Origin: Tragulus kanchil
Lineage: Eukaryota > Chordata > Mammalia > Artiodactyla > Tragulidae
DNA: 64,000 bases
Assembly (NCBI GenBank): GCA_022376925.1
Contig: JAIOJX010000002.1
Coordinates: 130,892,831 to 130,956,830 of the forward strand
Reading direction: 5' to 3'
Below are positions 1,795-61,703 of this stretch, one piece after another. Numbering within the stretch: position 1 is the first letter of the stretch; every line of letters starts with the position of its first letter. The notes under the pieces were generated by a model. That model searched no databases. It had not been told where the DNA came from and was given only the letters and a program-made list of their open reading frames with translations. A program made the translations under genes and the position numbers.

Positions 1795-2054
1795 CATTTC
1801 CCAATGACCTACTGTGTGCACAAGACATACAGTTAAATATGAAGGTGAGCAAAGACTGATGATATCATCAGTTAACGTCTAATAATTGAGCAGAGACCCA
1901 TGAGAAAGACAAGGCCAGCATTAAACAACTGTAGAGAAATGATGCAAGAGAAAAGTTCCAGAGTGGGAAGAGTTGAGAGTAGAAACAAGAAGTGCTAAGA
2001 ATGCAGAGAATGGAGTGGTCCCTGTGGATTGCAGAGGTCAAAATACTTGAGGGA

Positions 2055-2334
2055 GGGCTTCCCTGGTGGTCCAGTGGGTAGGGACACTGCTTTGCAGTGC
2101 AAGGGGCGCCGGTTCAATCCCTGGCCCAGGAAGATCCCACATGCTGAGGAGCAGCTGGGCCAGTGTCTCCAATTATGAGCCAGCACTCTGGAGCATGTGC
2201 GCCCAGAGTCAGTGCTCTGCAACAAGAGAGGCCACAGCAATGAGAGGCCTACACAGGCCAAAGAACAAAGATGGAAGAAAATAAATAAAGACCAATAAAA
2301 GTGGCCAAAAAAACCTTTAAAAAACAAAAAAAAA
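2055..2334 (+). mobile_element. tRNA-derived ruminant SINE (GGTCCAGTGGGTA type)
   Basis: Starts GGGCTTCCCTGGTGG, with pol III A box (TGGTCCAGTGG) and B box (GGTTCAATCC), ends AAAGTGGCC plus an A-rich tail. Flanking ACTTGAGGGAGG / ACTTGAAGGAAG is a possible diverged target-site duplication. A second copy at 3140-3419 is part of duplication 1. Confidence 0.85.
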
Positions 2335-2688
2335 CTTGAAGGAAGAGGTAGGTCTTGAGCTAGATTTTAAAAGTTTATGGGTCCCTGCTACTTACACTGT
2401 GCCCAGGGTGAGTAGCACCTGGGAGCTTATAAATGTGCAGAATTATGGGCCCCTCCCAAAGTCTATGGAATCAGAACCTGTACTTCAATAAAATTAAGTT
2501 ACACAGATGCCTCTGAAGTGTGATAAGTACTAGTGGGGACATGAGTGATGGTCAGGGGGAGCATTTGAATGGAAAGCTAAACAATGTTTTTTAGCATCTG
2601 CAGAGTTCTCAGGCAGAAGAACTGACAGTGAAAGGAAAGATGTCGCCCTCCACATAGGAACCCTTGCCTCATTTATGCTCAGTCTTAC

Positions 2689-2868
2689 CAATGCTTTTCA
2701 TGAGGCTATTGTAATAGTCGTTTTCCTTCTCCTCCACGAGGGCAGTCATCAGGGGTTCCAGGAAAGGACTCGTCAGCAGTGTGTTCGAATCAGCTTTGAA
2801 ATCCGAGCCATCACTTCTTCCTTCTCAGGGCAATCATGTCTTTTCGGATTCCATTGCTTGTCCATAAA
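2689..2868 (-). pseudogene. DNAH3: Damaged copy of DNAH3 fifth exon at a repeat edge
   Basis: This is the same exon as 3774-3963, at offset 1085, but with errors in its last part: one A is lost near 2790, one G near 2830, and about 17 bp are replaced near 2855-2862, where the TACTAC run of the tyrosine repeat is missing. The reading frame is broken. All three lesions lie within about 90 bp of the duplication junction at 2879/2880, while the rest of the copy matches. This is the pattern expected of an unpolished contig end rather than a decaying gene copy. Confidence 0.85.
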
Positions 2869-3139
2869 CAAACCACCAGCATTTCCCAATGACCTACTGT
2901 GTGCACAAGACATACAGTTAAATATGAAGGTGAGCAAAGACTGATGATATCATCAGTTAACGTCTAATAATTGAGCAGAGACCCATGAGAAAGACAAGGC
3001 CAGCATTAAACAACTGTAGAGAAATGATGCAAGAGAAAAGTTCCAGAGTGGGAAGAGTTGAGAGTAGAAACAAGAAGTGCTAAGAATGCAGAGAATGGAG
3101 TGGTCCCTGTGGATTGCAGAGGTCAAAATACTTGAGGGA

Positions 3140-3419
3140 GGGCTTCCCTGGTGGTCCAGTGGGTAGGGACACTGCTTTGCAGTGCAAGGGGCGCCGGTTC
3201 AATCCCTGGCCCAGGAAGATCCCACATGCTGAGGAGCAGCTGGGCCAGTGTCTCCAATTATGAGCCAGCACTCTGGAGCATGTGCGCCCAGAGTCAGTGC
3301 TCTGCAACAAGAGAGGCCACAGCAATGAGAGGCCTACACAGGCCAAAGAACAAAGATGGAAGAAAATAAATAAAGACCAATAAAAGTGGCCAAAAAAACC
3401 TTTAAAAAACAAAAAAAAA
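3140..3419 (+). mobile_element. Same SINE, copy in duplication 1
   Basis: Identical to 2055-2334 at offset 1085; not an independent insertion. Confidence 0.85.
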
Positions 3420-3773
3420 CTTGAAGGAAGAGGTAGGTCTTGAGCTAGATTTTAAAAGTTTATGGGTCCCTGCTACTTACACTGTGCCCAGGGTGAGTAG
3501 CACCTGGGAGCTTATAAATGTGCAGAATTATGGGCCCCTCCCAAAGTCTATGGAATCAGAACCTGTACTTCAATAAAATTAAGTTACACAGATGCCTCTG
3601 AAGTGTGATAAGTACTAGTGGGGACATGAGTGATGGTCAGGGGGAGCATTTGAATGGAAAGCTAAACAATGTTTTTTAGCATCTGCAGAGTTCTCAGGCA
3701 GAAGAACTGACAGTGAAAGGAAAGATGTCGCCCTCCACATAGGAACCCTTGCCTCATTTATGCTCAGTCTTAC

Positions 3774-3963
3774 CAATGCTTTTCATGAGGCTATTGTAAT
3801 AGTCGTTTTCCTTCTCCTCCACGAGGGCAGTCATCAGGGGTTCCAGGAAAGGACTCGTCAGCAGTGTGTTCGAAATCAGCTTTGAAATCCGAGCCATCAC
3901 TTCTTCCTTCTCAGGGGCAATCATGTCTTTTCGGATTCCATTGGTCAAATAGTAGTAGTATCT
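3774..3963 (-). CDS. DNAH3: DNAH3 coding exon, fifth visible (intact middle copy of three)
   Basis: This 190-bp minus-strand exon encodes RYYYYLTNGIRKDMIAPEKE, then VMARISKLISNTLLTSPFLE and a segment ending SLMKSI. It is part of the N-terminal tail of axonemal dynein heavy chain 3. The acceptor is ATGGAAG|AGA and the donor is CATTG|GTAAGA. It starts in phase 0, matching the end of exon 7482-7647 (SDLE), and ends in phase 1, matching exon 776-971. The same exon occurs again, identical, at 4872-5061 and in damaged form at 2689-2868, because two artificial-looking direct duplications overlap here. One of the two intact copies is the real exon; which one cannot be told from the sequence. Confidence 0.92.
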
Positions 3964-4144
3964 CTTCCATAAACAAACCACCAGCAAGAAAATGATCAAA
4001 TCAATTGGCTAATTGGGCCCACTTGCCACACCCATCAGCTGCCAAAGTACTCTATCCATACAGCACCGATCTCCACCCCTCACTCACTCCTTGGCCCAAG
4101 ACGTCACACTCATTGCTATAAATTGTTGGTGAGCATTCCCCATG

Positions 4145-4683
4145 ACTTGACCTCCCACTCCAGGATGTGTGGCTCTAGGTGAGTGATCATACCATCATGG
4201 TTATCCAAGTCATTAAGACCTTTTTTGTATAGTATTTCTGTGAACTCAAGTGGGCTTTAGGAAGTATCACTACCAACAAAGCTAGTGCAGGTGATAGAAT
4301 TCCAGCTGAGCTATTTCAAACCCTGAAAGATAATGATGTTAAAGTGCTGCACTCAATATGCCAGCAAATTTGGAAAACTCAGCAGTGGCCACAAGACTGG
4401 AAAATGTCAGTTTTCATTCCAGTCATAAAGAAGAGCAATGCCAAAGAATGCACAACTGCACTCATGTGAAATAAGTGAATAGCAAGGTCGTGTTCAAAAT
4501 CATCCAAGCTAGGATTCAACCCATTTGAACTGAGAACTTCCAGATGTACAAGCTGGATTTAGAAAAGGCAGAAGAACCAGAGCTCAAACTGCCAACATCC
4601 ACTGGATCACAGAAAAAGCAAGATAATTCCAGAAAAAAACATCTACTTCTACTTCATTGACTACACTAAAGCCTGACTGTGTG
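4145..4683 (+). mobile_element. BovB (RTE) fragment with 5' inversion
   Basis: 4145-4244 is BovB sequence in antisense and 4245 onward is the adjoining BovB sequence in sense. The two blocks are neighbours in the element, the signature of a 5' inversion (twin priming). The sense part reads degenerate reverse-transcriptase sequence. It is cut by the duplication 2 junction. Confidence 0.75.
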
Positions 4684-4871
4684 ACACAGATGCCTCTGAA
4701 GTGTGATAAGTACTAGTGGGGACATGAGTGATGGTCAGGGGGAGCATTTGAATGGAAAGCTAAACAATGTTTTTTAGCATCTGCAGAGTTCTCAGGCAGA
4801 AGAACTGACAGTGAAAGGAAAGATGTCGCCCTCCACATAGGAACCCTTGCCTCATTTATGCTCAGTCTTAC

Positions 4872-5061
4872 CAATGCTTTTCATGAGGCTATTGTAATAG
4901 TCGTTTTCCTTCTCCTCCACGAGGGCAGTCATCAGGGGTTCCAGGAAAGGACTCGTCAGCAGTGTGTTCGAAATCAGCTTTGAAATCCGAGCCATCACTT
5001 CTTCCTTCTCAGGGGCAATCATGTCTTTTCGGATTCCATTGGTCAAATAGTAGTAGTATCT
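4872..5061 (-). CDS. DNAH3: DNAH3 fifth exon, duplicate copy in direct repeat 2
   Basis: This is an intact repeat of exon 3774-3963, shifted by exactly 1098 bp, with the same splice sites and the same reading. Splicing both copies into one transcript would duplicate 190 nt (not a multiple of three) and break the DNAH3 frame. A functional tandem exon is therefore unlikely. The flanking intron and the BovB copy are repeated with it, which fits an unmerged assembly overlap better than an exon duplication. It should not be counted as a separate exon in a gene model. Confidence 0.85.
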
Positions 5062-5242
5062 CTTCCATAAACAAACCACCAGCAAGAAAATGATCAAATC
5101 AATTGGCTAATTGGGCCCACTTGCCACACCCATCAGCTGCCAAAGTACTCTATCCATACAGCACCGATCTCCACCCCTCACTCACTCCTTGGCCCAAGAC
5201 GTCACACTCATTGCTATAAATTGTTGGTGAGCATTCCCCATG

Positions 5243-7136
5243 ACTTGACCTCCCACTCCAGGATGTGTGGCTCTAGGTGAGTGATCATACCATCATGGTT
5301 ATCCAAGTCATTAAGACCTTTTTTGTATAGTATTTCTGTGAACTCAAGTGGGCTTTAGGAAGTATCACTACCAACAAAGCTAGTGCAGGTGATAGAATTC
5401 CAGCTGAGCTATTTCAAACCCTGAAAGATAATGATGTTAAAGTGCTGCACTCAATATGCCAGCAAATTTGGAAAACTCAGCAGTGGCCACAAGACTGGAA
5501 AATGTCAGTTTTCATTCCAGTCATAAAGAAGAGCAATGCCAAAGAATGCACAACTGCACTCATGTGAAATAAGTGAATAGCAAGGTCGTGTTCAAAATCA
5601 TCCAAGCTAGGATTCAACCCATTTGAACTGAGAACTTCCAGATGTACAAGCTGGATTTAGAAAAGGCAGAAGAACCAGAGCTCAAACTGCCAACATCCAC
5701 TGGATCACAGAAAAAGCAAGATAATTCCAGAAAAAAACATCTACTTCTACTTCATTGACTACACTAAAGCCTGACTGTGTGGATCACAACAGTGGAAAAT
5801 TCTGAAAGAGATGAGAATACCAGACTTCCTTACCTGCCTCCTGAGAAATCTGTATGCAGGTCAAGAAGCAAGAGTTAGAACCGGGGCTTCCCCTGGTGGT
5901 CCAGTGGGTAGGGACACCGCCTTGCAGTGCAAGGGGCGCCGGTTCGATCCCTGGCCTGGGAAGATCCCACGTGTTGCAGAGCGGCTGGACCTATTTGTCT
6001 AATTACCGAGCCAGAGCTCTGGAGCTCTGGAGCGCATGCGCCCAGAGCCGGCGCTCTGCAACGACAGACGCCACTGTGATGGGAGGCCCACAGGAGCCAA
6101 AGAGCAAAGACGGATGAAAGTAGAGAAATGAAAGACCAATAGAAGTGGCCTGCCCGCTCCCCTCCCTCCCCAACCCGATCCCCGCTCCCCCCCGCCAAAA
6201 AAGAGTTAGAACTGGACATGGAACAAAGGACTGGTTCCAAATTGGGGAAGGAGTGCTGTATATTGTCTGTATATTGTACATTGTCACCCTACTTATTTAA
6301 CTTATATGCAGAGTACATCATGTGAAATGCTGGGCTAGATGAAGCTTAAGCTGCAACCAAGATTGCCAGGAGAAATATTAACTTCAGATATGCAGATGAA
6401 CCACCTTAGTGGCAGAAAGTGAAGAGGAACTAAAGAGCCTCCTGATGAAGGTGAAAGAGGAGAGTGAAAAAGCTGGCTTAAAACTCAACATTTAAAAAAT
6501 TAAGAACATGGCATCTGCTTCCAGCACTTCACGTCAAGTAGATGGGGAAAAAATGGAAACAGTGACAGATATTATTTTCTTGATCTCCAAAATCACTGTT
6601 GATAGTGACTGCAGCTATGACAAACCTAGACTGTGTATTAGAAAGGAGAGCCATTATTTTGCTGACAAAGATCCATATAGTCAAAGCGAAGGTTTTTCCA
6701 GTAGTCATGTATGCATGTGAGAGTTGCACCATAAAGAAGGCTGAGTGCCAGAGAACTGATGCCTTTGAACTATGGTGTTGGAGAAGACTCTTGAGAATCC
6801 CTTGGACAGTAAGGAGATCAAACCAGTCAGTCCCAAAGGAAATCAACCCTGAATATTCATTGGAAGGACTGATTCTGAAGCGAAGCTCCAATACTTTGGC
6901 CACTTGATGTGAAGAGACGACTTATTGGGAAAGACCCCAATGTTGGGAAAAATTGAAGGCAGGAGGAGAAGGGGGTGACAGAGGATGAGATGGTTGGATG
7001 GCATCACTGTGTCAATGAATATGAGTTTGAGCAAGCTCTGGGAGATGGTGAAGGACAGGGAAGCCTGGCATGCTGCAGTCCATGGGGTCACAGAGAGTCA
7101 GACACAACTGAGCAACTAAACTGAACTGACTGAACT
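5243..7136 (+). mobile_element. BovB (RTE), continuing to its 3' end, with nested SINE
   Basis: The duplicate of the inverted start (5243-5342) continues past 5781 through the remaining BovB to the tail ending AACTGAACTGACTGAACTGG near 7136. Degenerate reading of the RTE C-terminal part (for example RLLRIPWTVRRSNQSVPKEI) is visible at 6780-6850. Stops and frameshifts make it inactive. A SINE interrupts it at 5882-6200. Confidence 0.8.
5882..6200 (+). mobile_element. SINE nested in BovB, with 12-bp target-site duplication
   Basis: AAGAGTTAGAAC flanks it at 5870-5881 and 6201-6212. It has the same family start and pol III boxes, followed by a CT-rich tail (CCCGCTCCCCTCCCTCCCC). Confidence 0.9.
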
Positions 7137-7481
7137 GGAATATACTTAGACTAAAAATTATTAATCATTTATCTGAAATTCAAATTTAACTGGGTGTCTT
7201 ATTTTTTGTTTGTTTATCAAAATCTGGCAACCCCAGCCTACACCATTTTGTAATCTATGTTCTAAGAGGACCCAAACACACCAGTTTCTAAGACTTACTA
7301 GAGCAGAGGACTCACGCATGCACACCTTCAGTAGTAGTCTGTCATGAATACTGTCAAAAATACTGTCTTCAGTATTTTTAAAATATTCCCCAGGTGACTG
7401 CTGTTTCTCCCCACTTTAGAATCACTAAGGTACAAGAGCAGTATTTAGCAAATTGAAAGAAAGCAGGCAATAAGAATGTAC

Positions 7482-7647
7482 CTCCAAGTCTGATTCAGAT
7501 GGTTTGGCTTCTTTACTTTCTATTTCCATCTCCTGCTGTAGCATCACTTCAATCTGTTCTTCTGGACTCATTGGTCTGCTTCCTGGGAGAGTCAAAGATG
7601 TCACATCCTTCTTCATGGGTGAGAAGGTGCTGCTGGATGGTTTTGTC
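7482..7647 (-). CDS. DNAH3: DNAH3 coding exon, fourth visible (copy 1)
   Basis: This 166-bp minus-strand exon has acceptor CTACTTTTCAG|GAC and donor TTGGAG|GTACAT. It contributes one base to a split codon and then 55 codons: TKPSSSTFSPMKKDVTS, then PGSRPMSPEEQIEVMLQQEM and KPSESDLE. It belongs to the low-complexity, probably disordered N-terminus of DNAH3. The preceding exon (9003-9075) ends in AG, so the joint codon is AGG (Arg). The exon ends in phase 0, ahead of the exon starting RYYYYL. An identical copy lies 1114 bp to the right at 8596-8761 within direct repeat 3. Confidence 0.92.
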
Positions 7648-7728
7648 CTGAAAAGTAGATATAGCTTAGTTCCTGGTTTCATGGATACTTCATAGGTTTG
7701 CTTTGTTTGCCGTTTTTATTTAGATCCT

Positions 7729-8250
7729 CTATGACAAACCTAGACTGTGTATTAGAAAGGAGAGCCATTATTTTGCTGACAAAGATCCATATAGTCAAAG
7801 CGAAGGTTTTTCCAGTAGTCATGTATGCATGTGAGAGTTGCACCATAAAGAAGGCTGAGTGCCAGAGAACTGATGCCTTTGAACTATGGTGTTGGAGAAG
7901 ACTCTTGAGAATCCCTTGGACAGTAAGGAGATCAAACCAGTCAGTCCCAAAGGAAATCAACCCTGAATATTCATTGGAAGGACTGATTCTGAAGCGAAGC
8001 TCCAATACTTTGGCCACTTGATGTGAAGAGACGACTTATTGGGAAAGACCCCAATGTTGGGAAAAATTGAAGGCAGGAGGAGAAGGGGATCACAGATGAT
8101 GAGATGACTGGATGGCATCACTGACTCAATGGATATGAGTTTGAGCAAGCTCTGGGAGATGGTGAAGGACAGGGAAGCCTGGCATGCTGCAGTCCATGGG
8201 GTCACAGAGAGTCAGACACAACTGAGCAACTAAACTGAACTGACTGAACT
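7729..8250 (+). mobile_element. BovB 3' end, copy in duplication 3
   Basis: Repeat of 6615-7136, with clustered substitutions at 8088-8135. Confidence 0.85.
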
Positions 8251-8595
8251 GGAATATACTTAGACTAAAAATTATTAATCATTTATCTGAAATTCAAATT
8301 TAACTGGGTGTCTTATTTTTTGTTTGTTTATCAAAATCTGGCAACCCCAGCCTACACCATTTTGTAATCTATGTTCTAAGAGGACCCAAACACACCAGTT
8401 TCTAAGACTTACTAGAGCAGAGGACTCACGCATGCACACCTTCAGTAGTAGTCTGTCATGAATACTGTCAAAAATACTGTCTTCAGTATTTTTAAAATAT
8501 TCCCCAGGTGACTGCTGTTTCTCCCCACTTTAGAATCACTAAGGTACAAGAGCAGTATTTAGCAAATTGAAAGAAAGCAGGCAATAAGAATGTAC

Positions 8596-8761
8596 CTCCA
8601 AGTCTGATTCAGATGGTTTGGCTTCTTTACTTTCTATTTCCATCTCCTGCTGTAGCATCACTTCAATCTGTTCTTCTGGACTCATTGGTCTGCTTCCTGG
8701 GAGAGTCAAAGATGTCACATCCTTCTTCATGGGTGAGAAGGTGCTGCTGGATGGTTTTGTC
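8596..8761 (-). CDS. DNAH3: DNAH3 fourth exon, duplicate copy in direct repeat 3
   Basis: Same sequence and splice sites as exon 7482-7647, offset 1114 bp. Including both copies would add 166 nt and shift the frame, so only one can belong to the functional transcript. The whole surrounding 1.1-kb block, including intron and a BovB tail, is repeated with it. Confidence 0.85.
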
Positions 8762-9002
8762 CTGAAAAGTAGATATAGCTTAGTTCCTGGTTTCATGGAT
8801 ACTTCATAGGTTTGCTTTGTTTGCCGTTTTTATTTAGATCCTCAATAAATTGGATTAAGAGCACTGGTGGGAATAACATAACTAACTAGGCATACAGAAA
8901 TGCTCTCAAGTCAAGAAGCAGAGTGTGGCTTTCATGAAATCACAGCCTTCTCCAGTTCAGTCCGGTGTCCTGCAGTCCCCTGTGCCCACAGGAACACTTT
9001 AC

Positions 9003-12402: not shown

Positions 12403-13315
12403 TTGAAAAGACAGAGAAACACCGCATGAATGAACAAGTCAGAGAAACACAATTACAAATGATAGAAAATGAAGGAACAAGTCAGAGAAACACAATTACA
12501 AATGATAGAAAATGAGATAGACAAATTATCTGAAAGAGAATTCAGAACAGCGATACTAGCGAGGATCCAAAACTCCGAAATCAGAATATTAAGAGGAAAT
12601 TAGTGCACTGAGAAGAGACATGCAAGAGATGAAAAATAAACAAATAGAGACAAACAACTCAATTGCTGAACTTAAAAATGCTTTGGAAGGACTCAACAGT
12701 AGAGTATCAGAGGCAGAAGAACGGGTAAGTGAGCTGGCAGACAGAATGGTGGAAATAACTGCTGAAGAACAGAACAAAGCACAAAGAATAAAAGGAACTA
12801 AGGATGTCCTCAGAGACCTATGTGACAATATCAAATCCACCAACATTACAATTATAGGGGTACCAGAAGAAGAAGAGGGGAAGAAAGGCTATGAAAAAAT
12901 TCTTGAAGAGATTATAGTTGAAAACTTCTCCAGTATGGGAAAGGAAATAGTCAACCAAGTCCAAGAAACACAAAGATCTCCATACAGGATAAACTCCAGA
13001 AGAAACACACCAAGCCACAGTCTAATCAAGCTAACACAGACAAAATATAAGGACAGAATACTTAAAGCAGCAAGGAACAAACAACAAATAACTTACATAG
13101 GAAACCCCATATGTTTAACTGCTGATCTATCAACAGAAACTCTGCAGGCCAGAGGAGAATGGCAAGACACATTTAAACGGATAAAAGAGAATAACCTACA
13201 ACCAAGAATCCTCTACCCGGCAAGGATCTCAATCAGAATTGATGGAGAAGTCAAAAGCTTTACAGACAAGCAAAAGCTAAAAGAATTTTGTACCATGAAA
13301 CCAGCCTTACAATAA
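12403..13315 (+). pseudogene. Broken L1 ORF1 (RNA-binding protein)
   Basis: The expected start codon is TTG at 12403-12405 ahead of KRQRNT, followed by an early TGA. A 43-bp tandem duplication (12432-12474/12475-12517) shifts the frame. From 12620 a 231-codon frame is open: a coiled-coil part (ELKNALEGLNSRVSEAEERV), then the RNA-recognition and C-terminal domains (TNITIIGVPEEEEGKKGYEK). It normally binds L1 RNA as a trimer; this copy is non-functional. Confidence 0.85.
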
Positions 13316-14940
13316 GTGTTAAAGGGCCTGATATAGCCAATAAATATAAGAGCAGGAGAAGTCCTACAAATCAAACCCAAAAATCTAAGAAGATGACAAT
13401 AGGAATGAATATTCCTATAAATAATTACTTTGAATGTAAACAGACTAAATGCTCCAACCAAAAGACACAGACTGGCAGAATGGATTCAAAAACAAGACCC
13501 ATATATATGCTGTTTACAAGAAACCCACATCAGAAATAATGACACACATAGACTGAAACTGAGAGGATGGAAAAAGATATTCCATGCAAATGGAAATCAA
13601 AAGAAAGCAGGAGTAACAATCCTCATATCAGACAAAATAGAGTTTAAAATAAAGAAGATTATTAGAGACAAGGCAGGTGACTACATAATGATCAAGGGAT
13701 CTATCCAAGAGGAAGACATAGCAATCATAAATATCTATGCACCCAACACAGGAGCACCCCAATACATAAGACAAACACTTTCAGACATAAAAGAAGAAAC
13801 TGACAATAACACAATAATAGTAGGAGACTATAACACTCCTCTCACACTGATGGACATATCATCAAAACAGAAAATTAATGAAGAAACAAAAGCCTTAAAG
13901 GACACACTAGAAGAGAAGGACTTCATGGATATTTTAGTTTCCCAAAAACCAAGTCCAAGAAACACAAAGATCTCCATACAGGATAAACTCCAGAAGAAAC
14001 ACACCAAGCCACAGTCTAATCAAGCTAACACAGACAAAATATAAGGACAGAATACTTAAAGCAGCAAGGAACAAACAACAAATAACTTACATAGGAAACC
14101 CCATATGTTTAACTGCTGATCTATCAACAGAAACTCTGCAGGCCAGAGGAGAATGGCAAGACACATTTAAACGGATAAAAGAGAATAACCTACAACCAAG
14201 AATCCTCTACCCGGCAAGGATCTCAATCAGAATTGATGGAGAAGTCAAAAGCTTTACAGACAAGCAAAAGCTAAAAGAATTTTGTACCATGAAACCAGCC
14301 TTACAATAAGTGTTAAAGGGCCTGATATAGCCAATAAATATAAGAGCAGGAGAAGTCCTACAAATCAAACCCAAAAATCTAAGAAGATGACAATAGGAAT
14401 GAATATTCCTATAAATAATTACTTTGAATGTAAACAGACTAAATGCTCCAACCAAAAGACACAGACTGGCAGAATGGATTCAAAAACAAGACCCATATAT
14501 ATGCTGTTTACAAGAAACCCACATCAGAAATAATGACACACATAGACTGAAACTGAGAGGATGGAAAAAGATATTCCATGCAAATGGAAATCAAAAGAAA
14601 GCAGGAGTAACAATCCTCATATCAGACAAAATAGAGTTTAAAATAAAGAAGATTATTAGAGACAAGGCAGGTGACTACATAATGATCAAGGGATCTATCC
14701 AAGAGGAAGACATAGCAATCATAAATATCTATGCACCCAACACAGGAGCACCCCAATACATAAGACAAACACTTTCAGACATAAAAGAAGAAACTGACAA
14801 TAACACAATAATAGTAGGAGACTATAACACTCCTCTCACACTGATGGACATATCATCAAAACAGAAAATTAATGAAGAAACAAAAGCCTTAAAGGACACA
14901 CTAGAAGAGAAGGACTTCATGGATATCTTTAGGACCTTCC
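12953..14940. repeat. Direct duplication 4 (12953-13946 / 13947-14940), inside L1
   Basis: Offset 994 bp. It covers the end of L1 ORF1 and the endonuclease start of ORF2. Copy 1 ends with about 15 bp of garbled sequence. Confidence 0.95.
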
Positions 14941-18190: not shown

Positions 18191-18209
18191 ACCCACACAC
18201 CTACGGGCA

Positions 18210-19929: not shown

Positions 19930-20236
19930 TATCGATCCTAAAGAAAATCAACCTGGAATATTCACTGAAAGGACTGATGCTGAAGCTGAAGCTCTAATAC
20001 TTTGGCCACTTAATGCAAAGATCTGACTCATGGGAAAAAACCCTGATGCTGGGAAAGACTGAAGGCAAAAGGAGTAGGAGCAGCAGAGGTTGAGATAGTA
20101 GGATGGCATCATTGACTTGATGCAGTTGATTTTGAGCAAACTCCAGGAGATAGTGAAGGACAGAGAAGCCTCAGGTGCTACAGTTCATGGGATTGCAAAG
20201 AGGCAGACATGACTCAGCAACAGAACAACAACAACT
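19930..20236 (+). mobile_element. BovB 3' tail
   Basis: AAGAAAATCAACCTGGAATA, CTTTGGCCACTTAATGCAAA and GCAGACATGACTCAGCAACA are typical of the BovB 3' end. Repeated at 21046-21352 and, in part, at 22396-22479 by duplications 6 and 7. Confidence 0.8.
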
Positions 20237-24049: not shown

Positions 24050-24061
24050 AGTTCTATGGTA

Positions 24062-47820: not shown

Positions 47821-48946
47821 GTGATGTCTCTGCTTTTGAATATGCTGCCTAGGTTTGTCAGAGCAAGCGTCTTTTAATTTCATAGCTGCAGTCACTGTTC
47901 ACAGTGATTTTTGGAGCCCAAGAATATAAAGTCTGTCACTGTTTCCATTGTTTGCCCATCTGTTTGCATGAAGTGATGGGACTGAATGTCATGATCTTTG
48001 TTTTTTGAATATTGAGTTTTAGGCTAGCTTTTTCTCTCTTCTCTTTCACCTTCATCAAGAGGCTCTTTCGATCCTCTTTACTTTCTGCCGTAAGGGTGGT
48101 GTCATCTGCATACCTGAGGTTATTCATATGTCTCCTGGCAATCTTGATTGCAGTTTGGGCTTCATGCAGCCTAGCATTTTGCATGATGGATTCTACATAT
48201 AAGTTAAACAAGGAGGATGTCAGTACACAGCCTCGAGTACTCCTTTCCCAATTTGGAACCAGTTTCTTGTTCCATGTCCTGTTCTCCCTGTTGCTTCTTG
48301 ATCCACATAGAAGTTTCACAGGAGACAGGTAAGGTGGTCTGGTATTCCCATTTTCCACAATTTGTTGTGATCCACACAGTCAAAGGCTTTAGCATAGTCA
48401 GTGAAGCAAAAGTAGAAGTTTTTCTGGAATTCTCTTGTTCTTTCTACAATCCAATGGATGTTGGCAATTTGATCTGTGGTTCTTCTGTCTTTTCTAAATT
48501 CAGCTTATACATCTGGAATTTCTCAGTTCACAGATGGTTGAAGCCTAGCTTGGAGGATTTTGATTGTTACTTTGCTAGCATGCGAAATGAGTACAGTCGT
48601 GCGATAGTTTGAGCATTGTTCCCTTTTGGGATGAAAACTGAACTTTTCCAGTTCTGTGGCCACTGCTGAGTTTTCCAAAATTGGTGGCATATTGAGTATA
48701 ACACTTGAGCAGCAGCATCTTTTAGGATTTGAAATAGCTCAGCTGGAATTCCATCACATCTGTTAGCTTTGTTTGTAGTGATGCTTCCTAAGGTGCATCT
48801 CACCACTTGACCTCACACTCCAAGATATCTGCTTCTAGGTGAGTGATTAAACCACTGTGGTCATCCAGGTCATTAAAATCTTTTTTGTATTTATTTTTTG
48901 TATTCTTGCCACTTCTTAATATCTTCTACTTCTGTTAGGTCTATAC
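47334..48946 (-). mobile_element. BovB, antisense, main body
   Basis: Continuous BovB complement from the 3' tail into the reverse-transcriptase region. The minus frame at 47936-48358 reads NARLHEAQTAIKIARRHMNN, then LRYADDTTLTAESKEDRKSL, which includes the RT catalytic YADD box. Frame breaks make it inactive. It is interrupted by an LTR at 48947. Confidence 0.88.
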
Positions 48947-49403
48947 TGTAAGAATCGCAAAGACACGCTGGACAGCAAGCTGTTAGGGAAAGAGCCCATT
49001 TGGGAAGAGTTCCCAGGTGAGATCCACAGGTCCAATAGGTGGGCCAGTGAAGTCGTGCCCCAGAGATGGGACAAGGAGGTTTTCTTTGGGAAGAAAAGGG
49101 GAAAAAAGAAAGGGGAGGGGGTTTCTTAGAGCAGGCGCAGAAACAAAGTCTTTGTTTAAACTAAGCAGGAAATTAGTGATGAGTCGGCTGTCCTGGAGTT
49201 GTCTGTGGGCATGGGGATGTGTAGTTCTTGTTACTTTCTACACCTGGTGGACAATCTTCATGGCCAGAGCGAACTCCTTATCGCAGGTCTTGAGAGACTC
49301 CCAGACACCAGCAGATCAGCAACAGGCCCTTTGCTGCTGACCCTTCAGGGCCAGCGAGTTCGCAACTGCAGTGTTAACCCTTTAATAGCCTACCAACCTA
49401 ACA
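48947..49403. mobile_element. Probable solo LTR inserted in BovB
   Basis: A 457-bp insertion starts TGTAAGAATCGC, ends CCAACCTAACA and is flanked by TATAC / TGTAC (one mismatch). BovB sequence continues on both sides (TTCTGTTAGGTC / CATTTCTGTCC). TG...CA ends plus a short target-site duplication fit an endogenous retrovirus LTR. Orientation and family are not determined; no internal retroviral genes are present. Confidence 0.55.
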
Positions 49404-49480
49404 TGTACCATTTCTGTCCTTTATTATGCCTATCTTTGCATGAAACCTTAGTCCAAAATTCAGCAACATGTTTGCTTGTT
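49404..49480 (-). mobile_element. Short BovB remainder and unmatched junction sequence
   Basis: CATTTCTGTCC to GCATGAAA is BovB. The last ~32 bp before 49481 match nothing in copy 2. Confidence 0.6.
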
Positions 49481-50050
49481 CAGTCAAAGGCTTTAGCATA
49501 GTCAGTGAAGCAAAAGTAGAAGTTTTTCTGGAATTCTCTTGTTCTTTCTACAATCCAATGGATGTTGGCAATTTGATCTGTGGTTCTTCTGTCTTTTCTA
49601 AATTCAGCTTATACATCTGGAATTTCTCAGTTCACAGATGGTTGAAGCCTAGCTTGGAGGATTTTGATTGTTACTTTGCTAGCATGCGAAATGAGTACAG
49701 TCGTGCGATAGTTTGAGCATTGTTCCCTTTTGGGATGAAAACTGAACTTTTCCAGTTCTGTGGCCACTGCTGAGTTTTCCAAAATTGGTGGCATATTGAG
49801 TATAACACTTGAGCAGCAGCATCTTTTAGGATTTGAAATAGCTCAGCTGGAATTCCATCACATCTGTTAGCTTTGTTTGTAGTGATGCTTCCTAAGGTGC
49901 ATCTCACCACTTGACCTCACACTCCAAGATATCTGCTTCTAGGTGAGTGATTAAACCACTGTGGTCATCCAGGTCATTAAAATCTTTTTTGTATTTATTT
50001 TTTGTATTCTTGCCACTTCTTAATATCTTCTACTTCTGTTAGGTCTATAC

Positions 50051-50507
50051 TGTAAGAATCGCAAAGACACGCTGGACAGCAAGCTGTTAGGGAAAGAGCC
50101 CATTTGGGAAGAGTTCCCAGGTGAGATCCACAGGTCCAATAGGTGGGCCAGTGAAGTCGTGCCCCAGAGATGGGACAAGGAGGTTTTCTTTGGGAAGAAA
50201 AGGGGAAAAAAGAAAGGGGAGGGGGTTTCTTAGAGCAGGCGCAGAAACAAAGTCTTTGTTTAAACTAAGCAGGAAATTAGTGATGAGTCGGCTGTCCTGG
50301 AGTTGTCTGTGGGCATGGGGATGTGTAGTTCTTGTTACTTTCTACACCTGGTGGACAATCTTCATGGCCAGAGCGAACTCCTTATCGCAGGTCTTGAGAG
50401 ACTCCCAGACACCAGCAGATCAGCAACAGGCCCTTTGCTGCTGACCCTTCAGGGCCAGCGAGTTCGCAACTGCAGTGTTAACCCTTTAATAGCCTACCAA
50501 CCTAACA
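50051..50507. mobile_element. Probable solo LTR, copy in duplication 15
   Basis: Same as 48947-49403, offset 1104. Confidence 0.55.
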
Positions 50508-50697
50508 TGTACCATTTCTGTCCTTTATTATGCCTATCTTTGCATGAAATGTTCCCTTAGTATCTCTAATTTTCTTGAGAAGATCTCTAGTCTTTTCCAT
50601 TCTATTGTTTTCTTCTATTTGTTTGCATTGTTCATTTAAGAAGGCTTTCTTATCTCTCCTTGCTGTTCTTTGGAACTCTGCATTCATATGGGTATAA
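50508..50697 (-). mobile_element. BovB, antisense, continuation beyond the LTR
   Basis: Reads CATTTCTGTCC, then TTGAGAAGATCTCTAGTC and CTTTGGAACTCTGCATTCAT, the BovB sequence expected after the LTR insertion point. Confidence 0.85.
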
Positions 50698-50711: not shown

Positions 50712-50869
50712 TTTAATATTTATTTATTTGAGTGTGCTGAGTCTTAGTTTTGGGACTTGGAATCTTTAGTTGCAGAATGTGGGATCTAGTTCCCTGACCA
50801 GGGATTGAACCCAGGCCCCCAGCATTGGGAACACAGAGTCTTAGCCACTGGACCACCAGGGAAGTCCCC
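50712..50869 (-). mobile_element. tRNA-derived SINE, antisense, short
   Basis: AATATTTATTTATTTGAGTG to GACCACCAGGGAAGTCCC. It lacks the long 3' half found in the other SINEs here. Confidence 0.75.
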
Positions 50870-54027: not shown

Positions 54028-54787
54028 GCAGTGGCTTCTTGGAACAGCCTTTTCTAGTTGAAGGGAGTGAGTCCTGTGCTTTTTCATTGTCAACTTGAAC
54101 TACAGGACCCTCCTGTCTTCCAGCTTGCCCCCAGCATACTCCATTTGAATCACTTGGGTGAACAACTGTTTTAGGAGCATGTGTTTTAGTTAGTGACACC
54201 CACGGTCACTATAGTTTGTTATGTCTTCAGTTTACCTGCTGTGCTACATGGCCCAAAGGAAGGACCACTTTTGGTGGGGGAAGGTTCTGGAATGATGGAG
54301 GCTTTCCAGGAAATGGAAACTAGCATGCCAGCACTGAGAAGAGATGGCATGGAGCCTAAGAAGATAAGGGATACCTATCTTTGTGAGGATCCCTAGGGCC
54401 AGCTCGGTATCAAAGCAGCTCTTCCCCACTGATCCAGCTCCAGAAACCCTTTTCTTTGGTGGAGGAAGATAACCTACCTATTAACGCAGTATAAGCTTGC
54501 AGTAGTCGTCAGGCTGTGACCTGACTGGTATCCAGGTTGACGACATAATATTTTCTCCTAATGAAGCGGCGGCCATTGCAAACCTGTGACATCTGAAGTG
54601 AAAAGAGTGAATGTTGAATGCCTAGATTTTGCCACTTGAAACCAGGTGACTCTAGGTGAGTCATTTTATCCCACTGTTCTCAAACTTTAATGTGTATACA
54701 AATCACCTGATGATCTTGTTAAAAGACAAAATCTGATTTGTCACATCTGGGTCAGGGTCCGAGATACTGCATATCTAACAAGCTCCC

Positions 54788-54975
54788 AGGGTCTTCCTTG
54801 GCAGTCCAGTGGTTAAGACTTTGCCTTCCAATACCAGAGATATGGGTTTGATTTCTGGTAGGGGAGCTAAGATCCTACACGCCTCCTGGCCAAAAATAAA
54901 ATAAAACATAAAACAAGGAATACTATAACAAATTCAATAAAGACTTAAAAACCCAAAAAACAAAACAATAAACAA
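54788..54975 (+). mobile_element. tRNA-derived SINE, diverged
   Basis: GTCTTCCTTGGCAGTCCAGT, GGTTTGATTTC B-box-like site and a long A-rich tail. Copy at 55836-56023. Confidence 0.72.
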
Positions 54976-55835
54976 GCTCCCAGGTGATACCAAGTAGCCA
55001 GAATTTAACCTCTCTGTGTCTCAGTGGCCTCAGCTGTGAAGTAAGCAGCCAGTAGTATGTCTGTTACATCAGAGTGCAGTGGCTTCTTGGAACAGCCTTT
55101 TCTAGTTGAAGGGAGTGAGTCCTGTGCTTTTTCATTGTCAACTTGAACTACAGGACCCTCCTGTCTTCCAGCTTGCCCCCAGCATACTCCATTTGAATCA
55201 CTTGGGTGAACAACTGTTTTAGGAGCATGTGTTTTAGTTAGTGACACCCACGGTCACTATAGTTTGTTATGTCTTCAGTTTACCTGCTGTGCTACATGGC
55301 CCAAAGGAAGGACCACTTTTGGTGGGGGAAGGTTCTGGAATGATGGAGGCTTTCCAGGAAATGGAAACTAGCATGCCAGCACTGAGAAGAGATGGCATGG
55401 AGCCTAAGAAGATAAGGGATACCTATCTTTGTGAGGATCCCTAGGGCCAGCTCGGTATCAAAGCAGCTCTTCCCCACTGATCCAGCTCCAGAAACCCTTT
55501 TCTTTGGTGGAGGAAGATAACCTACCTATTAACGCAGTATAAGCTTGCAGTAGTCGTCAGGCTGTGACCTGACTGGTATCCAGGTTGACGACATAATATT
55601 TTCTCCTAATGAAGTGGCGGCCATTGCAAACCTGTGACATCTGAAGTGAAAAGAGTGAATGTTGAATGCCTAGATTTTGCCACTTGGAAACCAGGTGACT
55701 CTAGGTGAGTCATTTTATCCCACTGTTCTCAAACTTTAATGTGTATACAAATCACCTGATGATCTTGTTAAAAGACAAAATCTGATTTGTCACATCTGGG
55801 TCAGGGTCCGAGATACTGCATATCTAACAAGCTCC

Positions 55836-56023
55836 CAGGGTCTTCCTTGGCAGTCCAGTGGTTAAGACTTTGCCTTCCAATACCAGAGATATGGGTTTGA
55901 TTTCTGGTAGGGGAGCTAAGATCCTACACGCCTCCTGGCCAAAAATAAAATAAAACATAAAACAAGGAATACTATAACAAATTCAATAAAGACTTAAAAA
56001 CCCAAAAAACAAAACAATAAACA
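55836..56023 (+). mobile_element. Same SINE, copy in duplication 16
   Basis: Same as 54788-54975, offset 1048. Confidence 0.72.
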
Positions 56024-56401
56024 AGCTCCCAGGTGATACCAAGTAGCCAGAATTTAACCTCTCTGTGTCTCAGTGGCCTCAGCTGTGAAGTAAGCAGCCA
56101 GTAGTATGTCTGTTACATCAGAGTGCACGTATGCTGAGCATGCCTTCTGAGAGTGGGTGTGCAAAGCACTAGAGCCGTGCTTGGATGTTTCCTTTGTTCA
56201 CTGGACTTGAGATTGGGTAGGGCTCTCAAACTTACCACCTGTCCACAGCCGCCTTAAGTTGTTGCTAGGGCAACTCATGTCTTGGGAGGATTATTATTGT
56301 TGACTTCTTACTGGCTTATATAACTTCCTACAGCTCGGGTGAATCCATCAACCTGGGGTTCAGACATGGTATTCACTCCTGCACTTCTTCTTTGCCCACA
56401 G

Positions 56402-56920: not shown

Positions 56921-57498
56921 AGAAGCCATTCACTCCAGAGAGATTTATTGAGCCCCTGTTGCATATCAGGTGCCTTGCTGTGTACTGAGGCTCCCCGTCA
57001 CCTTCCTCCTGAAGTCCCACCCTCTGTTGTCAGCCCCTCCTTGAGTTACTAAGTTAAAATTACTAAGAAAGTAAATCAGATATTTGCCAGCACTTTGTGG
57101 TTGTTAGCCATCCTTTGAAAAATAGTGATCTAGGATTTTGTGAATCTATGAAAAGGCACCACGTCTGTTTACCTTCTCCACTTTCCTTCCTGCCCAGAGT
57201 CCATTCCTGAAATGGTCACTGTGGAGTGCTGGGTGGGCTATTTAACCACTCGTCAGGCAAGGGGAAGGAGGTCTGCCCTGCAGCATTTCCCATGTTATTA
57301 ATTCTATATTGGAAAGAGAAATTTTGTTATGAAGGAGGCAAGAGGAAGTGTTTTGGGCAGACAAAAACTACCATAGTCTGTCACGTGTATGATAGTCATT
57401 TAATTGTCATACCATCACATAGAGGTCGTTATTACTATATTCTTTTTATTGGTGAGTGAAACTAGAGCTCTTAAGAGGCCCAAGAAGTCATACCATAA
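56921..57498. other. LDAF1 intron 3, no gene recognised
   Basis: Unremarkable sequence; no exon, RNA gene or young repeat. Confidence 0.5.
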
Positions 57499-57718
57499 AT
57501 GACTTGGTTTAGTCACCCAATCATGTCTGATTTCTGTGACCCCATGGACTGGGGCCTGCCAGGCGCCTCTGTCCATGGGATTCTCCAGGCAAGAATGCTG
57601 GAGTGGGTTGCCATGTCCTCCTCCAGATGATCTTCCAGACCCAGGGATTGAACCCTGGTCTCTTATGTCTCCTGCATTGCAGGCAGGTTCTTTACCGACT
57701 GAGCCATGAGGGAAGGTT
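57499..57718 (-). mobile_element. Bov-A-type SINE, antisense
   Basis: AGTCACCCAATCATGTCTGA, CCATGGGATTCTCCAGGCAA and GCAGGCAGGTTCTTTACCGA. Copy at 58626-58845. Confidence 0.82.
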
Positions 57719-57962
57719 AACGAGGTCAGACTCAGGCCTGTCAACTGTAAAAAAGCCGTGCTGTTTCTGTAGTACCTTTTACTATTTTCCACCCATTTAC
57801 CCCATATGATAAACATGTATTTGCTCTGCACTTGTTAGATGCTATGACGATAGCTTTCAGTGAATGGTACCAGATTCGTGATCTCCAAAGGAAAAAATTT
57901 CCCTTTGGGACCAAAGACGCAGCTTAGGCACTCAGAGCTTCGTGCGACAAAAGTTTTACTAA

Positions 57963-58290
57963 GGGCTTCACTGGTGGTCCAGTGGGTAAGGACACCACCG
58001 CCTTGCAGGGCAAGGGGCACTGGTTTGACCCTGGCCTGGGAAGATCCCACGTGCCGTGGAGTGGCTGGACCGATGTGTCCAATTACCGAGCCGGAGCTCT
58101 GGAGCACATGCGCCCAGAGCCGGTGCTCTGCGACAATAGAGGCCACCGCGATGGGAGGCCCACATGGGCCAAAGAACAAAGATGGATGAAAATAGACAAA
58201 TGAAAGACCAATAGAAGTAGCCCACCTGCTCCCCTCCCTCCCCACCCCACCCCCAATAAATAAATAAATAAATAAATCTTAAAAAAAAAA
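57963..58290 (+). mobile_element. tRNA-derived SINE, full length, with target-site duplication
   Basis: AAAGTTTTACTAA at 57950-57962 and 58291-58303. The SINE has the GGTCCAGTGGGTA type head, a CT-rich stretch (CCTGCTCCCCTCCCTCCCCA), (AATA)n and a poly-A. It is the best-preserved example of the full structure. Confidence 0.92.
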
Positions 58291-58625
58291 AAAGTTTTAC
58301 TAAAGCAAGAAGGAACAGAGAAAGCTTCTGACATAGACATCAAAAAGGGGCAGAAAGAGTACCCACCACGCTAGTTTAGACAGGACATTATGTACTTTTT
58401 CAGTTGGTTATTAACAATAGATCAAAAGAATATCTGGCTTAATTACCCACCCACACTGCAGGAGGCAAGAGGAAGTGTTTTGGGCAGACAAAAACTACCA
58501 TAGTCTGTCACGTGTATGATAGTCATTTAATTGTCATACCATCACATAGAGGTCGTTATTACTATATTCTTTTTATTGGTGAGTGAAACTAGAGCTCTTA
58601 AGAGGCCCAAGAAGTCATACCATAA

Positions 58626-58845
58626 ATGACTTGGTTTAGTCACCCAATCATGTCTGATTTCTGTGACCCCATGGACTGGGGCCTGCCAGGCGCCTCTGTC
58701 CATGGGATTCTCCAGGCAAGAATGCTGGAGTGGGTTGCCATGTCCTCCTCCAGATGATCTTCCAGACCCAGGGATTGAACCCTGGTCTCTTATGTCTCCT
58801 GCATTGCAGGCAGGTTCTTTACCGACTGAGCCATGAGGGAAGGTT
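58626..58845 (-). mobile_element. Same SINE, copy in duplication 17
   Basis: Same as 57499-57718, offset 1127. Confidence 0.82.
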
Positions 58846-59089
58846 AACGAGGTCAGACTCAGGCCTGTCAACTGTAAAAAAGCCGTGCTGTTTCTGTAGT
58901 ACCTTTTACTATTTTCCACCCATTTACCCCATATGATAAACATGTATTTGCTCTGCACTTGTTAGATGCTATGACGATAGCTTTCAGTGAATGGTACCAG
59001 ATTCGTGATCTCCAAAGGAAAAAATTTCCCTTTGGGACCAAAGACGCAGCTTAGGCACTCAGAGCTTCGTGCGACAAAAGTTTTACTAA

Positions 59090-59403
59090 GGGCTTCACTG
59101 GTGGTCCAGTGGGTAAGGACACCACCGCCTTGCAGGGCAAGGGGCACTGGTTTGACCCTGGCCTGGGAAGATCCCACGTGCCGTGGAGTGGCTGGACCGA
59201 TGTGTCCAATTACCGAGCCGGAGCTCTGGAGCACATGTGCCCAGAGCCGGTGCTCTGCGACAATAGAGGCCACCGCGATGGGAGGCCCACATGGGCCAAA
59301 GAACAAAGATGGATGAAAATAGACAAATGAAAGACCAATAGAAGTAGCCCACCTGCTCCCCTCCCTCCCCCAATAAATAAATAAATAAATAAATCTTAAA
59401 AAA
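59090..59403 (+). mobile_element. Same SINE, copy in duplication 17
   Basis: Same insertion as 57963-58290; the C-rich tail is about 10 bp shorter and one C is a T (near 59238). Confidence 0.9.
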
Positions 59404-59552
59404 AAAAAAAGTTTTACTAAAGCAAGAAGGAACAGAGAAAGCTTCTGACATAGACATCAAAAAGGGGCAGAAAGAGTACCCACCACGCTAGTTTAGACAG
59501 GACATTATGTACTTTTTCAGTTGGTTATTAACAATAGATCAAAAGAATATCT

Positions 59553-60392
59553 CAAGGCTGTAAAGGTCTCTCCAGACCCACTTCTGCAACACTGCATCTT
59601 GAGGTAACATGGTTTCAAGAATAGCCAGAAGGAACTGGTTCCTGTTAAGGAGAAATATGTCCTCAAGCAAGATACATTGTTGTTATAATCATTAGCCTTG
59701 GGCTTAAAGCAAGTCTTAGGCAAAATAGGTTGTTGCCATGACAAACAAGTTGAAGGCACATAAGCTAAAAAGTGTTTGTTCTCCCTCCTTTTTCTCAGAG
59801 ATCCTCCCTATCAACCTGCCTAAGAATAAGGTCTCTCACTAATTCATTAATATTCCCATTAAAAATTATTTAAGTATGGGTAAAATGACCATTCAGACCT
59901 TATGGATATTGTGTAATGGTTTCCAGGCTGCATTGCAAAAGATGCAATCAAAAGTTATGTTTAGATTTTACTTTATTTAGCCTACAGAGCCTTTATTTCC
60001 ACAGATTGTAGGTAAGTGTGAATTACGGAATTTGTTAGGGACTTTGAAACACTGGACATGATTCAGCACCCTCTTTACTACCTTGGCTAACTCCTTTAGA
60101 GGATTCCACTGGGAGCCCATCCCTGACCTTGAGGGTGAGGGAGTTTCAAATTCAAATACCCATGGGCAAGTCAGGCAGCAAAAGTGAGCAAAGCAGTCCA
60201 AGCATGATACAGTTGGGTCCAGTGGGGCCTAGAGGAAACAACAGTCAATTGTTGCCATGGAGTGATGCTCACATAGATATTGAGATTGTTTCTTTTTTTA
60301 AGCAATGTCAGAAGTCTGGATTTTTCTTTGTTAATTTTTTGGCCACTTCTATTGGTTTTTCATTTATTTATTTTCATCCATTTTTTTTATTG
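59553..60392. other. LDAF1 intron 3, no gene recognised
   Basis: Unremarkable AT-rich intron, repeated at 60660-61488 by duplication 18. It ends in a truncated SINE start (GGCCACTTCTATTGG) belonging to the element at 61432-61703. Confidence 0.5.
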
Positions 60393-60516
60393 CAAAGAAC
60401 AAAGATAGATGGAAATAAATAAATGAAAGTCCAATAGAAGTAGCCCACCTGCCCCCCTCCCCCCCCCCCCCACCCCCAATAAATAAATAAATAAATAAAT
60501 CTTAAAAAAAAAAAAA
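60393..60516 (+). mobile_element. SINE 3' end, partial copy in duplication 18
   Basis: Only the tail from CAAAGAACAAAGAT onward, with an expanded C run at about 60453-60477. Third version of the same insertion. Confidence 0.88.
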
Positions 60517-61431
60517 GTTTTACTAAAGCAAGAAGGAACAGAGAAAGCTTCTGACATAGACATCAAAAAGGGGCAGAAAGAGTACCCACCACGCTAGTTT
60601 AGACAGGACATTATGTACTTTTTCAGTTGGTTATTAACAATAGATCAAAAGAATATCTCAAGGCTGTAAAGGTCTCTCCAGACCCACTTCTGCAACACTG
60701 CATCTTGAGGTAACATGGTTTCAAGAATAGCCAGAAGGAACTGGTTCCTGTTAAGGAGAAATATGTCCTCAAGCAAGATACATTGTTGTTATAATCATTA
60801 GCCTTGGGCTTAAAGCAAGTCTTAGGCAAAATAGGTTGTTGCCATGACAAACAAGTTGAAGGCACATAAGCTAAAAAGTGTTTGTTCTCCCTCCTTTTTC
60901 TCAGAGATCCTCCCTATCAACCTGCCTAAGAATAAGGTCTCTCACTAATTCATTAATATTCCCATTAAAAATTATTTAAGTATGGGTAAAATGACCATTC
61001 AGACCTTATGGATATTGTGTAATGGTTTCCAGGCTGCATTGCAAAAGATGCAATCAAAAGTTATGTTTAGATTTTACTTTATTTAGCCTACAGAGCCTTT
61101 ATTTCCACAGATTGTAGGTAAGTGTGAATTACGAAATTTGTTAGGGACTTTGAAACACTGGACATGATTCAGCACCCTCTTTACTACCTTGGCTAACTCC
61201 TTTAGAGGATTCCACTGGGAGCCCATCCCTGACCTTGAGGGTGAGGGAGTTTCAAATTCAAATACCCATGGGCAAGTCAGGCAGCAAAAGTGAGCAAAGC
61301 AGTCCAAGCATGATACAGTTGGGTCCAGTGGGGCCTAGAGGAAACAACAGTCAATTGTTGCCATGGAGTGATGCTCACATAGATATTGAGATTGTTTCTT
61401 TTTTTAAGCAATGTCAGAAGTCTGGATTTTT

Positions 61432-61703
61432 CTTTGTTAATTTTTTGGCCACTTCTATTGGTTTTTCATTTATTTATTTTCATCCATCTTTGTTCTTTGG
61501 CCTGTGTGGGCCTCCCATTGCAGTGGCCTCTCTCGTTGCAGAGCACTGGCTATGGATGCATGCGCTCCAGAGCGCTGGCTCCTCATTGGACACACTGGTC
61601 CAGCCACTCCACGGCACGTGGGATCTTCCTGGGCCAGGGATCGAACCAGTTCCCCTTGCACCGCAATGCAGGCTCTTTACCCACTGGACCACCGGGGAAG
61701 CCC
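61432..61703 (-). mobile_element. tRNA-derived SINE, antisense, close to LDAF1 exon 3
   Basis: TTTTTTGGCCACTTCTATTG to CACCGGGGAAGCCC, with CTGGATTTTT on both sides (61422-61431 and 61704-61713). It lies about 150 bp before the acceptor of exon 61850-61988. Confidence 0.88.

Follow-up and report, generated by a model that had tools for sequence, protein, structure and literature searches.

The window (the whole stretch of 64,000 bases that was analysed) contains 18 pairs of neighbouring, nearly identical copies of ca. 1.1 kb, and we have very little doubt that these duplications are an assembly artefact, overlaps between assembly units that were not merged, and not biology. Almost certainly they are not a real feature of this genome. 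Unmerged overlaps had already been proposed in the first-pass annotation of this DNA, and the single size class of the copies, their unrelated contents, their near identity and the zones with three copies all support that proposal. The same explanation also accounts for the loss of bases on the join side in eight of the nine pairs that have indels near the join, and for a DNAH3 exon copy whose frame is broken at the end of a unit.

Structure of the duplications

All 18 head-to-tail pairs reported before were recovered by k-mer diagonals and alignment (Table 1). The first copies measured 994-1138 bp, precisely the range that had been given (mean 1098, standard deviation 35, median 1101.5 bp), and the second copies 1001-1136 bp; across the pairs the length of the overlap varies by only ca. 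3%. Together the pairs span positions 1795-61497, practically the 1795-61488 of the earlier description. The exact 25-mer repeats of the window fall into a single distance class, with 18,280 at 900-1300 bp and none at either 100-900 bp or 1300-2000 bp, so the pairs are not due to chance. Their contents are unrelated, as had been claimed, and include both DNAH3 exons and an open-reading-frame region (12593-15230) which, from its translation, we take to be L1-like.

Table 1. Duplicated pairs and DNAH3 exon stretches (positions in the window; residues are those of the DNAH3 bait)
Feature	Span	Strand	Copies	Remarks
Pair 1	1795-3984		1795-2879, 2880-3984	copy 1 end: two 1-base losses (strict), 18-base loss (looser alignment)
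Pair 2	3586-5781		3586-4683, 4684-5781	three copies where it overlaps pair 1; 100% identity, no spacer, no end decay
Pair 3	6615-8842		6615-7728, 7729-8842	cluster of 8 substitutions; ends without decay
Pair 4	12953-14947		12953-13946, 13947-14947	within the L1-like open-reading-frame region
Pair 5	15959-18197		15959-17076, 17077-18197	
Pair 6	19273-21531		19273-20410, 20411-21531	
Pair 7	21250-23512		21250-22384, 22385-23512	overlaps pair 6
Pair 8	24522-26691		24522-25603, 25604-26691	DNAH3 exons inside
Pair 9	27489-29707		27489-28578, 28579-29707	strongest end decay: copy 1 short by 38 bases in last 120 columns
Pair 10	30657-32891		30657-31768, 31769-32891	
Pair 11	35008-37174		35008-36090, 36091-37174	
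Pair 12	36996-39260		36996-38132, 38133-39260	overlaps pair 11
Pair 13	38972-41141		38972-40056, 40057-41141	overlaps pair 12
Pair 14	45598-47850		45598-46717, 46718-47850	
Pair 15	48348-50561		48348-49452, 49453-50561	
Pair 16	54028-56124		54028-55075, 55076-56124	no end decay
Pair 17	57333-59595		57333-58459, 58460-59595	
Pair 18	59295-61497		59295-60391, 60392-61497	overlaps pair 17
DNAH3 exon, residues 295-361	775-975	-	single	outside the pairs; 91% identity
DNAH3 exon, residues about 237-295	2690-2864	-	third copy	frame-broken at unit end; three short pieces in different frames
DNAH3 exon, residues 232-295	3775-3966	-		unbroken copy; 87.5% identity
DNAH3 exon, residues 232-295	4873-5064	-		unbroken copy; 87.5% identity
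DNAH3 exon, residues 173-238	7464-7670	-	first of two; other 8578-8784	
DNAH3 exon, residues 75-159	24726-24980	-	first of two; other 25808-26062	
DNAH3 exon, residues 44-75	25493-25588	-	fuller copy 26573-26683 (residues 39-75)	shortened at unit end

Within the pairs, stretches of DNAH3 exon are present in two, two, two and three copies, and one further stretch lies outside them in a single copy. The exon at 24726-24980 is probably shorter than the matched stretch, because the match crosses a stop near its end. Relatives of one DNAH3 exon peptide were also sought in two collections that are not ruminant and therefore say little, with 55 pattern matches in genome_contigs and 7 in viral_contigs, none of them confirmed. 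Positions 23000-43000 (20,001 of the 64,000 bases) had no match in plasmids or phages, which are equally not ruminant and as little informative.

Where neighbouring overlaps themselves overlap, three copies are found; there are five such stretches, detected by diagonals near 2,200 bp and by the pair coordinates. When copy 1 of every pair was dropped, 19,768 of the 64,000 bases were taken out (about 31% of the window), in line with the ca. 20 kb of redundancy estimated previously. No exact 25-mer repeat was then left at 900-1300 bp, and the five DNAH3 exon stretches were each found once and in order. The collapse of a real duplication would look alike, and this result shows redundancy, not its cause.

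The joins

The copies had been described as separated by at most about 35 bp. Strict spacers of 0-35 bp were found in 16 of the 18 pairs, but those of pairs 12 and 18 measured 109 and 87 bp. Most of the length of these two spacers is explained when the alignment takes in the degraded start of copy 2, so the description is true in substance even if not to the letter.

End decay was assessed on strict local alignments in place of semi-global ones. In these, the end zones (3,600 columns) held 23 indel events and the interiors (15,786 columns) 5. The shorter copy was the one next to the join in 21 of the 23 (p = 6.6e-5 assuming that the events are independent; pair 9 contributes six of the 21). 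Tallied by pair, eight are for a loss on the join side, one is against it and nine (pairs 2, 3, 7 and 13-18) have no end-zone indel at all, pairs 2, 3 and 16 being joined with zero spacer. Poor consensus at unit ends is a feature of the joins overall and not of each one. Of 13 spacers tested, five (pairs 4, 7, 9, 10 and 14) are no closer to the expected continuation than random sequence is; for pairs 9 and 10, respectively 59 and 52 of 60 random pieces scored equal or higher. The looser semi-global alignment gave a sign count of 14 pairs for, none against and four even. We do not rest the argument mainly on this count, since the method itself leans the same way when random spacers are put in as a control (13 of the 18 pairs, excluding spacers of 0 or >40), with a mean of 7.2 bases on the join side and 2.0 on the other, compared with 11.9 and 0.9 for the real spacers.

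Proposed mechanism and source program

The window would be made up of at least 19 assembly units placed end to end, each with its own separately computed consensus, and neighbouring units would have ca. 1.1 kb of genomic sequence in common. At 18 joins this overlap would have gone unrecognised and both copies been retained, a structure that is directly visible and a cause that we infer from it. A poor consensus with lost bases over the final tens of positions of a unit may be why merging failed at some joins; at others the unit ends are clean. An overlap of constant size points to an assembler built around segments of fixed length.

As to the program, we lean, if only slightly, towards wtdbg or wtdbg2, because the constant overlap size resembles one 1024-base vertex. 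Both compute a separate consensus for each edge; adjacent edges have a vertex in common, and the consensus step (wtpoa-cns) must then merge the edge ends. The mean overlap is ca. 7% longer than such a vertex; our assumption is that 1024 raw bases would become ca. 1100 consensus bases through a net loss of bases in the raw reads together with jitter in the segment starts. The vertices of wtdbg2 (Redbean) are described as 1024-bp segments (PMC10989838; PMC7730629). In the sections of one benchmark drawn on here, Redbean assemblies exceeded the references for simulated reads of mediocre quality, those of other assemblers being smaller; with real reads Redbean genome sizes were not significantly different from the references (PMC7730629). 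A search for ruminant assemblies made with wtdbg led to papers on goat, yak, sika deer and buffalo, none of which could be linked to the window; the buffalo assemblies are reported to have been made with Wtdbg (PMC11382405). Our literature search found no published description of such a joining failure in wtdbg2 in the parts of the sources that it covered, PMC9668749 included.

Software other than wtdbg or wtdbg2, or another procedure (gap filling, chunked polishing or the merging of two assemblies), could have left the same unmerged overlaps, and to this variant, which belongs to the artefact reading itself, we would give somewhat less than an even chance. The evidence identifies a kind of error and not a piece of software, and the 7% excess over 1024 bases also speaks for such a variant. 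However, the advances between joins are irregular (706-5541 bp), unlike fixed polishing chunks, and a length variation of ca. 3% is unlike what would be expected of read-to-read or contig-to-contig overlaps. We also considered an overlap by a fixed k-mer after homopolymer compression, of the kind used in certain HiFi graphs, and do not favour it, because the compressed distance between copies is more variable (coefficient of variation 0.039 versus 0.030 for the raw one).

Divergence between copies and the question of haplotypes

The copies had been called near identical, and the strict local identities (96.4-100%, at least 99.0% in 17 of the 18 pairs, with four pairs devoid of any difference) agree with this. 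The interiors, 15,616 columns in all, hold 13 substitutions. Eight of these are crowded into 44 columns of pair 3; apart from this cluster, which lies in a repeat, five substitutions are left for the same number of columns. These figures bear on heterotype false duplication, in which both haplotypes of a heterozygous animal are assembled side by side. This is a well-described source of false adjacent duplications, a cow assembly included (PMC2864568; PMC9516828), but we consider it very improbable here. So few substitutions, most of them in one cluster, are not enough for two haplotypes, and the identities contrast with the median of 98.1%, with few contigs above 99.5%, given in the relevant part of PMC2864568. 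It would be expected to give neither a uniform size of 1.0-1.14 kb nor a loss of bases on the join side. A difference at the level of heterozygosity throughout the pairs was not found, and haplotype duplication was rejected on the grounds of too low a divergence and a constant length.

Copy edges and the question of real duplication

The claim that the copies share no common sequence at their edges is borne out, since random position sets, 500 for each of the three types of boundary, reached the observed best column frequency in 500, 486 and 346 cases. Microhomology at the boundaries averages 1.0 base, compared with 0.75 at random, and flank-to-flank homology scores do not exceed 17, which is the random 95th percentile. 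The breakpoint signature expected of real tandem duplication (microhomology, flanking homology, a motif) is thus absent in its three components, and tandem duplication by recombination or end joining was rejected for this reason; blunt end joining without microhomology would likewise leave no breakpoint signature. Real tandem duplications of ca. 1.1 kb at 18 unrelated stretches, produced by some fixed-step process in the lineage or in the cell source, would formally fit the copy-copy layout, the four exactly identical pairs and the nine without a near-join indel, but we regard them as the least credible origin of all, with hardly any chance of being true, given one size at 18 unrelated places within 64 kb, the featureless edges, DNAH3 exons that would be left repeated two or three times, the loss of bases on the join side in eight of nine pairs with end-zone indels and the five zones of three copies that arise where adjacent overlaps run into each other.

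Consequences

The duplications have no biological meaning in themselves and their value is one of data quality. An annotation of DNAH3 here would carry false repeated exons and, if the whole assembly is alike, gross errors would affect its size, gene models, counts of segmental duplications and read mapping. The single repeat distance of ca. 1.1 kb, together with join-side base loss at about half of the joins, provides a signature for which other public assemblies could readily be screened.

Comparison with known systems

The unmerged overlaps are reminiscent of the duplicated overlapping contigs (DOCs) of Kelley and Salzberg (2010; PMC2864568), in which two neighbours with overlapping ends are both retained and a false adjacent duplication results. 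Exons are falsely duplicated in DOCs, as happens here with DNAH3. In the portion of that study used here, most mis-assembled contigs were <2,000 bp, with contigs of up to 28 kb, and 82% of the chimpanzee DOC alignments were within 10 bp of contig ends. DOCs were ascribed to divergent haplotypes; over all false duplications pooled, the median identity was 98.1% and few exceeded 99.5%. In contrast, the pairs in the window are of a single size and nearly identical, have no Ns between the copies and amount to 18 in 64 kb. There is also a likeness to the homotype false duplications of the Vertebrate Genomes Project (PMC9516828), where, in the passages relied on here, a single haplotype is under-collapsed because of read errors and exons are falsely gained; that class is set by k-mers and read depth, and the likeness here is drawn from the sequence alone. 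Finally, as in wtdbg/wtdbg2 (Redbean), described in the cited material as joining successive edges by a fixed segment of ca. 1 kb, the units of the window share a segment of nearly constant size, in this case of 1098 bp on average and not 1024.

Duplicated Pairs, Joins, and Units

The 18 direct pairs of neighbouring copies described in the first-pass annotation were recovered by k-mer diagonals, by a repeat finder (best 20 of its 21 families) and by local alignment. With the joins (boundaries between the left copy, copy 1, and the right one, copy 2) set for the best end-to-end overlap, copy 1 measured 994-1138 bp, the very range given there (mean 1098 bp, sd 35), and copy 2 1001-1136 bp. Over the whole window there were 18,280 exact 25-mer repeats at a distance of 900-1300 bp and none at 100-900 or at 1300-2000 bp, an excess far beyond chance. 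The 17 units between successive joins were 1804-6661 bp long. At five places (pairs 1/2, 6/7, 11/12, 12/13, and 17/18) k-mer diagonals and overlap coordinates revealed stretches present three times, because the two overlaps of a short unit overlap each other; the repeat finder alone had at least four of these five among the families listed.

Positions of the joins and of other features in the window
Feature	Position	Strand	Remarks
Joins 1-9	after bases 2879, 4683, 7728, 13946, 17076, 20410, 22384, 25603, 28578
Joins 10-18	after bases 31768, 36090, 38132, 40056, 46717, 49452, 55075, 58459, 60391
DNAH3 exon, bait residues 39-75		-	other copy spans only 44-75, truncated at unit end
DNAH3 exon, bait residues 75-159		-	two copies
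DNAH3 exon, bait residues 173-238		-	two copies
DNAH3 exon, bait residues 232-295	third copy 2690-2864	-	two unbroken copies, third frame-broken
DNAH3 exon, bait residues 295-361		-	single copy, outside pairs
Open reading segments, presumably L1-like (by recognition)	12593-15230	+	240, 207, 272 aa, stop to stop
tRNA-like Cys(GCA)	2059-2134, 3144-3219	+	ARAGORN only
tRNA-like Gly(CCC)	50789-50862	-	Rfam and ARAGORN
GC- and CpG-rich stretch	41001-42250		500-base windows: GC 0.61-0.65, CpG observed/expected 0.62-0.71

Sequence Around the Joins

In strict local alignments of the 18 overlaps, the final 100 columns contained 19 indel events and the opening 100 contained 4, against 5 in the 15,786 interior columns. 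On the right side, where copy 1 touches the join, copy 1 was the shorter in 17 of the 19 events, and on the left, where copy 2 touches it, copy 2 was the shorter in all four. The lost pieces were mostly of one to a few bases, with a maximum of 16 in pair 9, which supplies six events. Join-side loss was seen in eight pairs (1, 4, 5, 6, 8, 9, 10, and 11) and the opposite direction in one (pair 12); nine pairs (2, 3, 7, and 13-18) had no end-zone indels in this alignment. Where present, the join-side loss is the look of a ragged consensus end reached by few reads, and nothing evident would make a real tandem duplication shed bases from both copies at their inner ends. The same loss appeared, and more strongly, in a looser alignment; we do not rely on it because a control (13 of the 18 pairs) showed that this alignment itself leans towards join-side loss.

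Thirteen spacers (bases left between the two copies in strict alignment), each of at least 8 bases, were compared with random pieces of the window for likeness to the expected continuation. Eight were closer to it than nearly all of these (no more than 4 of 60, or 0 of 25, scoring as high), and five were no better than random (13, 28, 59, 52, and 21 of 60 scoring as high). A boundary motif was sought and none was present; microhomology at the boundaries averaged 1.0 base vs. 0.75 at random, and no pair had flank homology above the random 95th percentile.

Differences Between Copies

Outside the outer 120 columns of each overlap, 13 substitutions were found in 15,616 columns, eight of them within 44 columns of pair 3 (6975-7018 vs. 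8089-8132), inside a dispersed repeat and in copies otherwise identical. A related minus-strand repeat near 46316, with its duplicate near 47434, was compared with the pair over a core with six variable sites, and it agrees with copy 1 at four of them and with copy 2 at one; the cluster may come from mis-polishing from other repeat copies. Two haplotypes as the source of the pairs were rejected, the remaining five substitutions being too few for the divergence generally known in a typical ruminant. The copies of pair 17 (57333-58459 vs. 58460-59595) show a 10-base C-rich indel beside a C-rich and AAAT-repeat tract. Pair 4 interrupts the L1-like segments, and each copy of pair 1 holds one of the Cys(GCA) calls, perhaps tRNA-derived SINEs.

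DNAH3 Exons and Collapse of the Pairs

Human DNAH3 protein served as bait solely to locate exons. The unbroken copies of residues 232-295 are both 87.5% identical to it, and the frame-broken one falls where the first unit ends and bases have been lost. Dropping copy 1 of every pair by script took out 19,768 bases and left 44,232, which bears out the estimate of about 20 kb of redundancy; the five DNAH3 stretches then followed one another in the right order, each as a single copy, and the repeats at 900-1300 bp were gone. Collapse of a real duplication would give the same picture. We favour an error because the alternative would be a conserved gene with several of its exons doubled or tripled, including a copy that is broken where a unit ends. 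The CpG-rich stretch upstream of these minus-strand exons is probably the CpG island of a promoter, which may also serve LDAF1, taken here to be the neighbouring gene.

Origin of the Pairs

We consider it practically certain that the pairs are an assembly error of the unmerged-overlap kind, a judgement that rests chiefly on finding one size class across sequences with nothing in common. Each unit would be a separate consensus with a fixed stretch in common with the next, and where the merge of neighbours failed both copies would have been written out. A fixed common stretch of about 1 kb points, with little better than even confidence, to wtdbg/wtdbg2. In these assemblers successive edges have a common vertex and are joined later by alignment of the edge ends. 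Vertices are 1024-bp segments according to PMC10989838 and PMC7730629; in the latter, Redbean (wtdbg2) assemblies of mediocre-quality simulated reads exceeded the references in size, and with real reads size did not differ significantly. The wtdbg2 consensus comes from a separate program, wtpoa-cns (PMC9915519). For an overlap of 1098 bp the consensus would have to be ca. 7% longer than the raw sequence, or segment starts would have to jitter between reads.

The closest printed phenomena are duplicated overlapping contigs (PMC2864568) and homotype false duplications (PMC9516828), from which the pairs differ in their single size and lack of gaps. The 18 pairs exemplify an already known type of assembly error and are not a biological feature.
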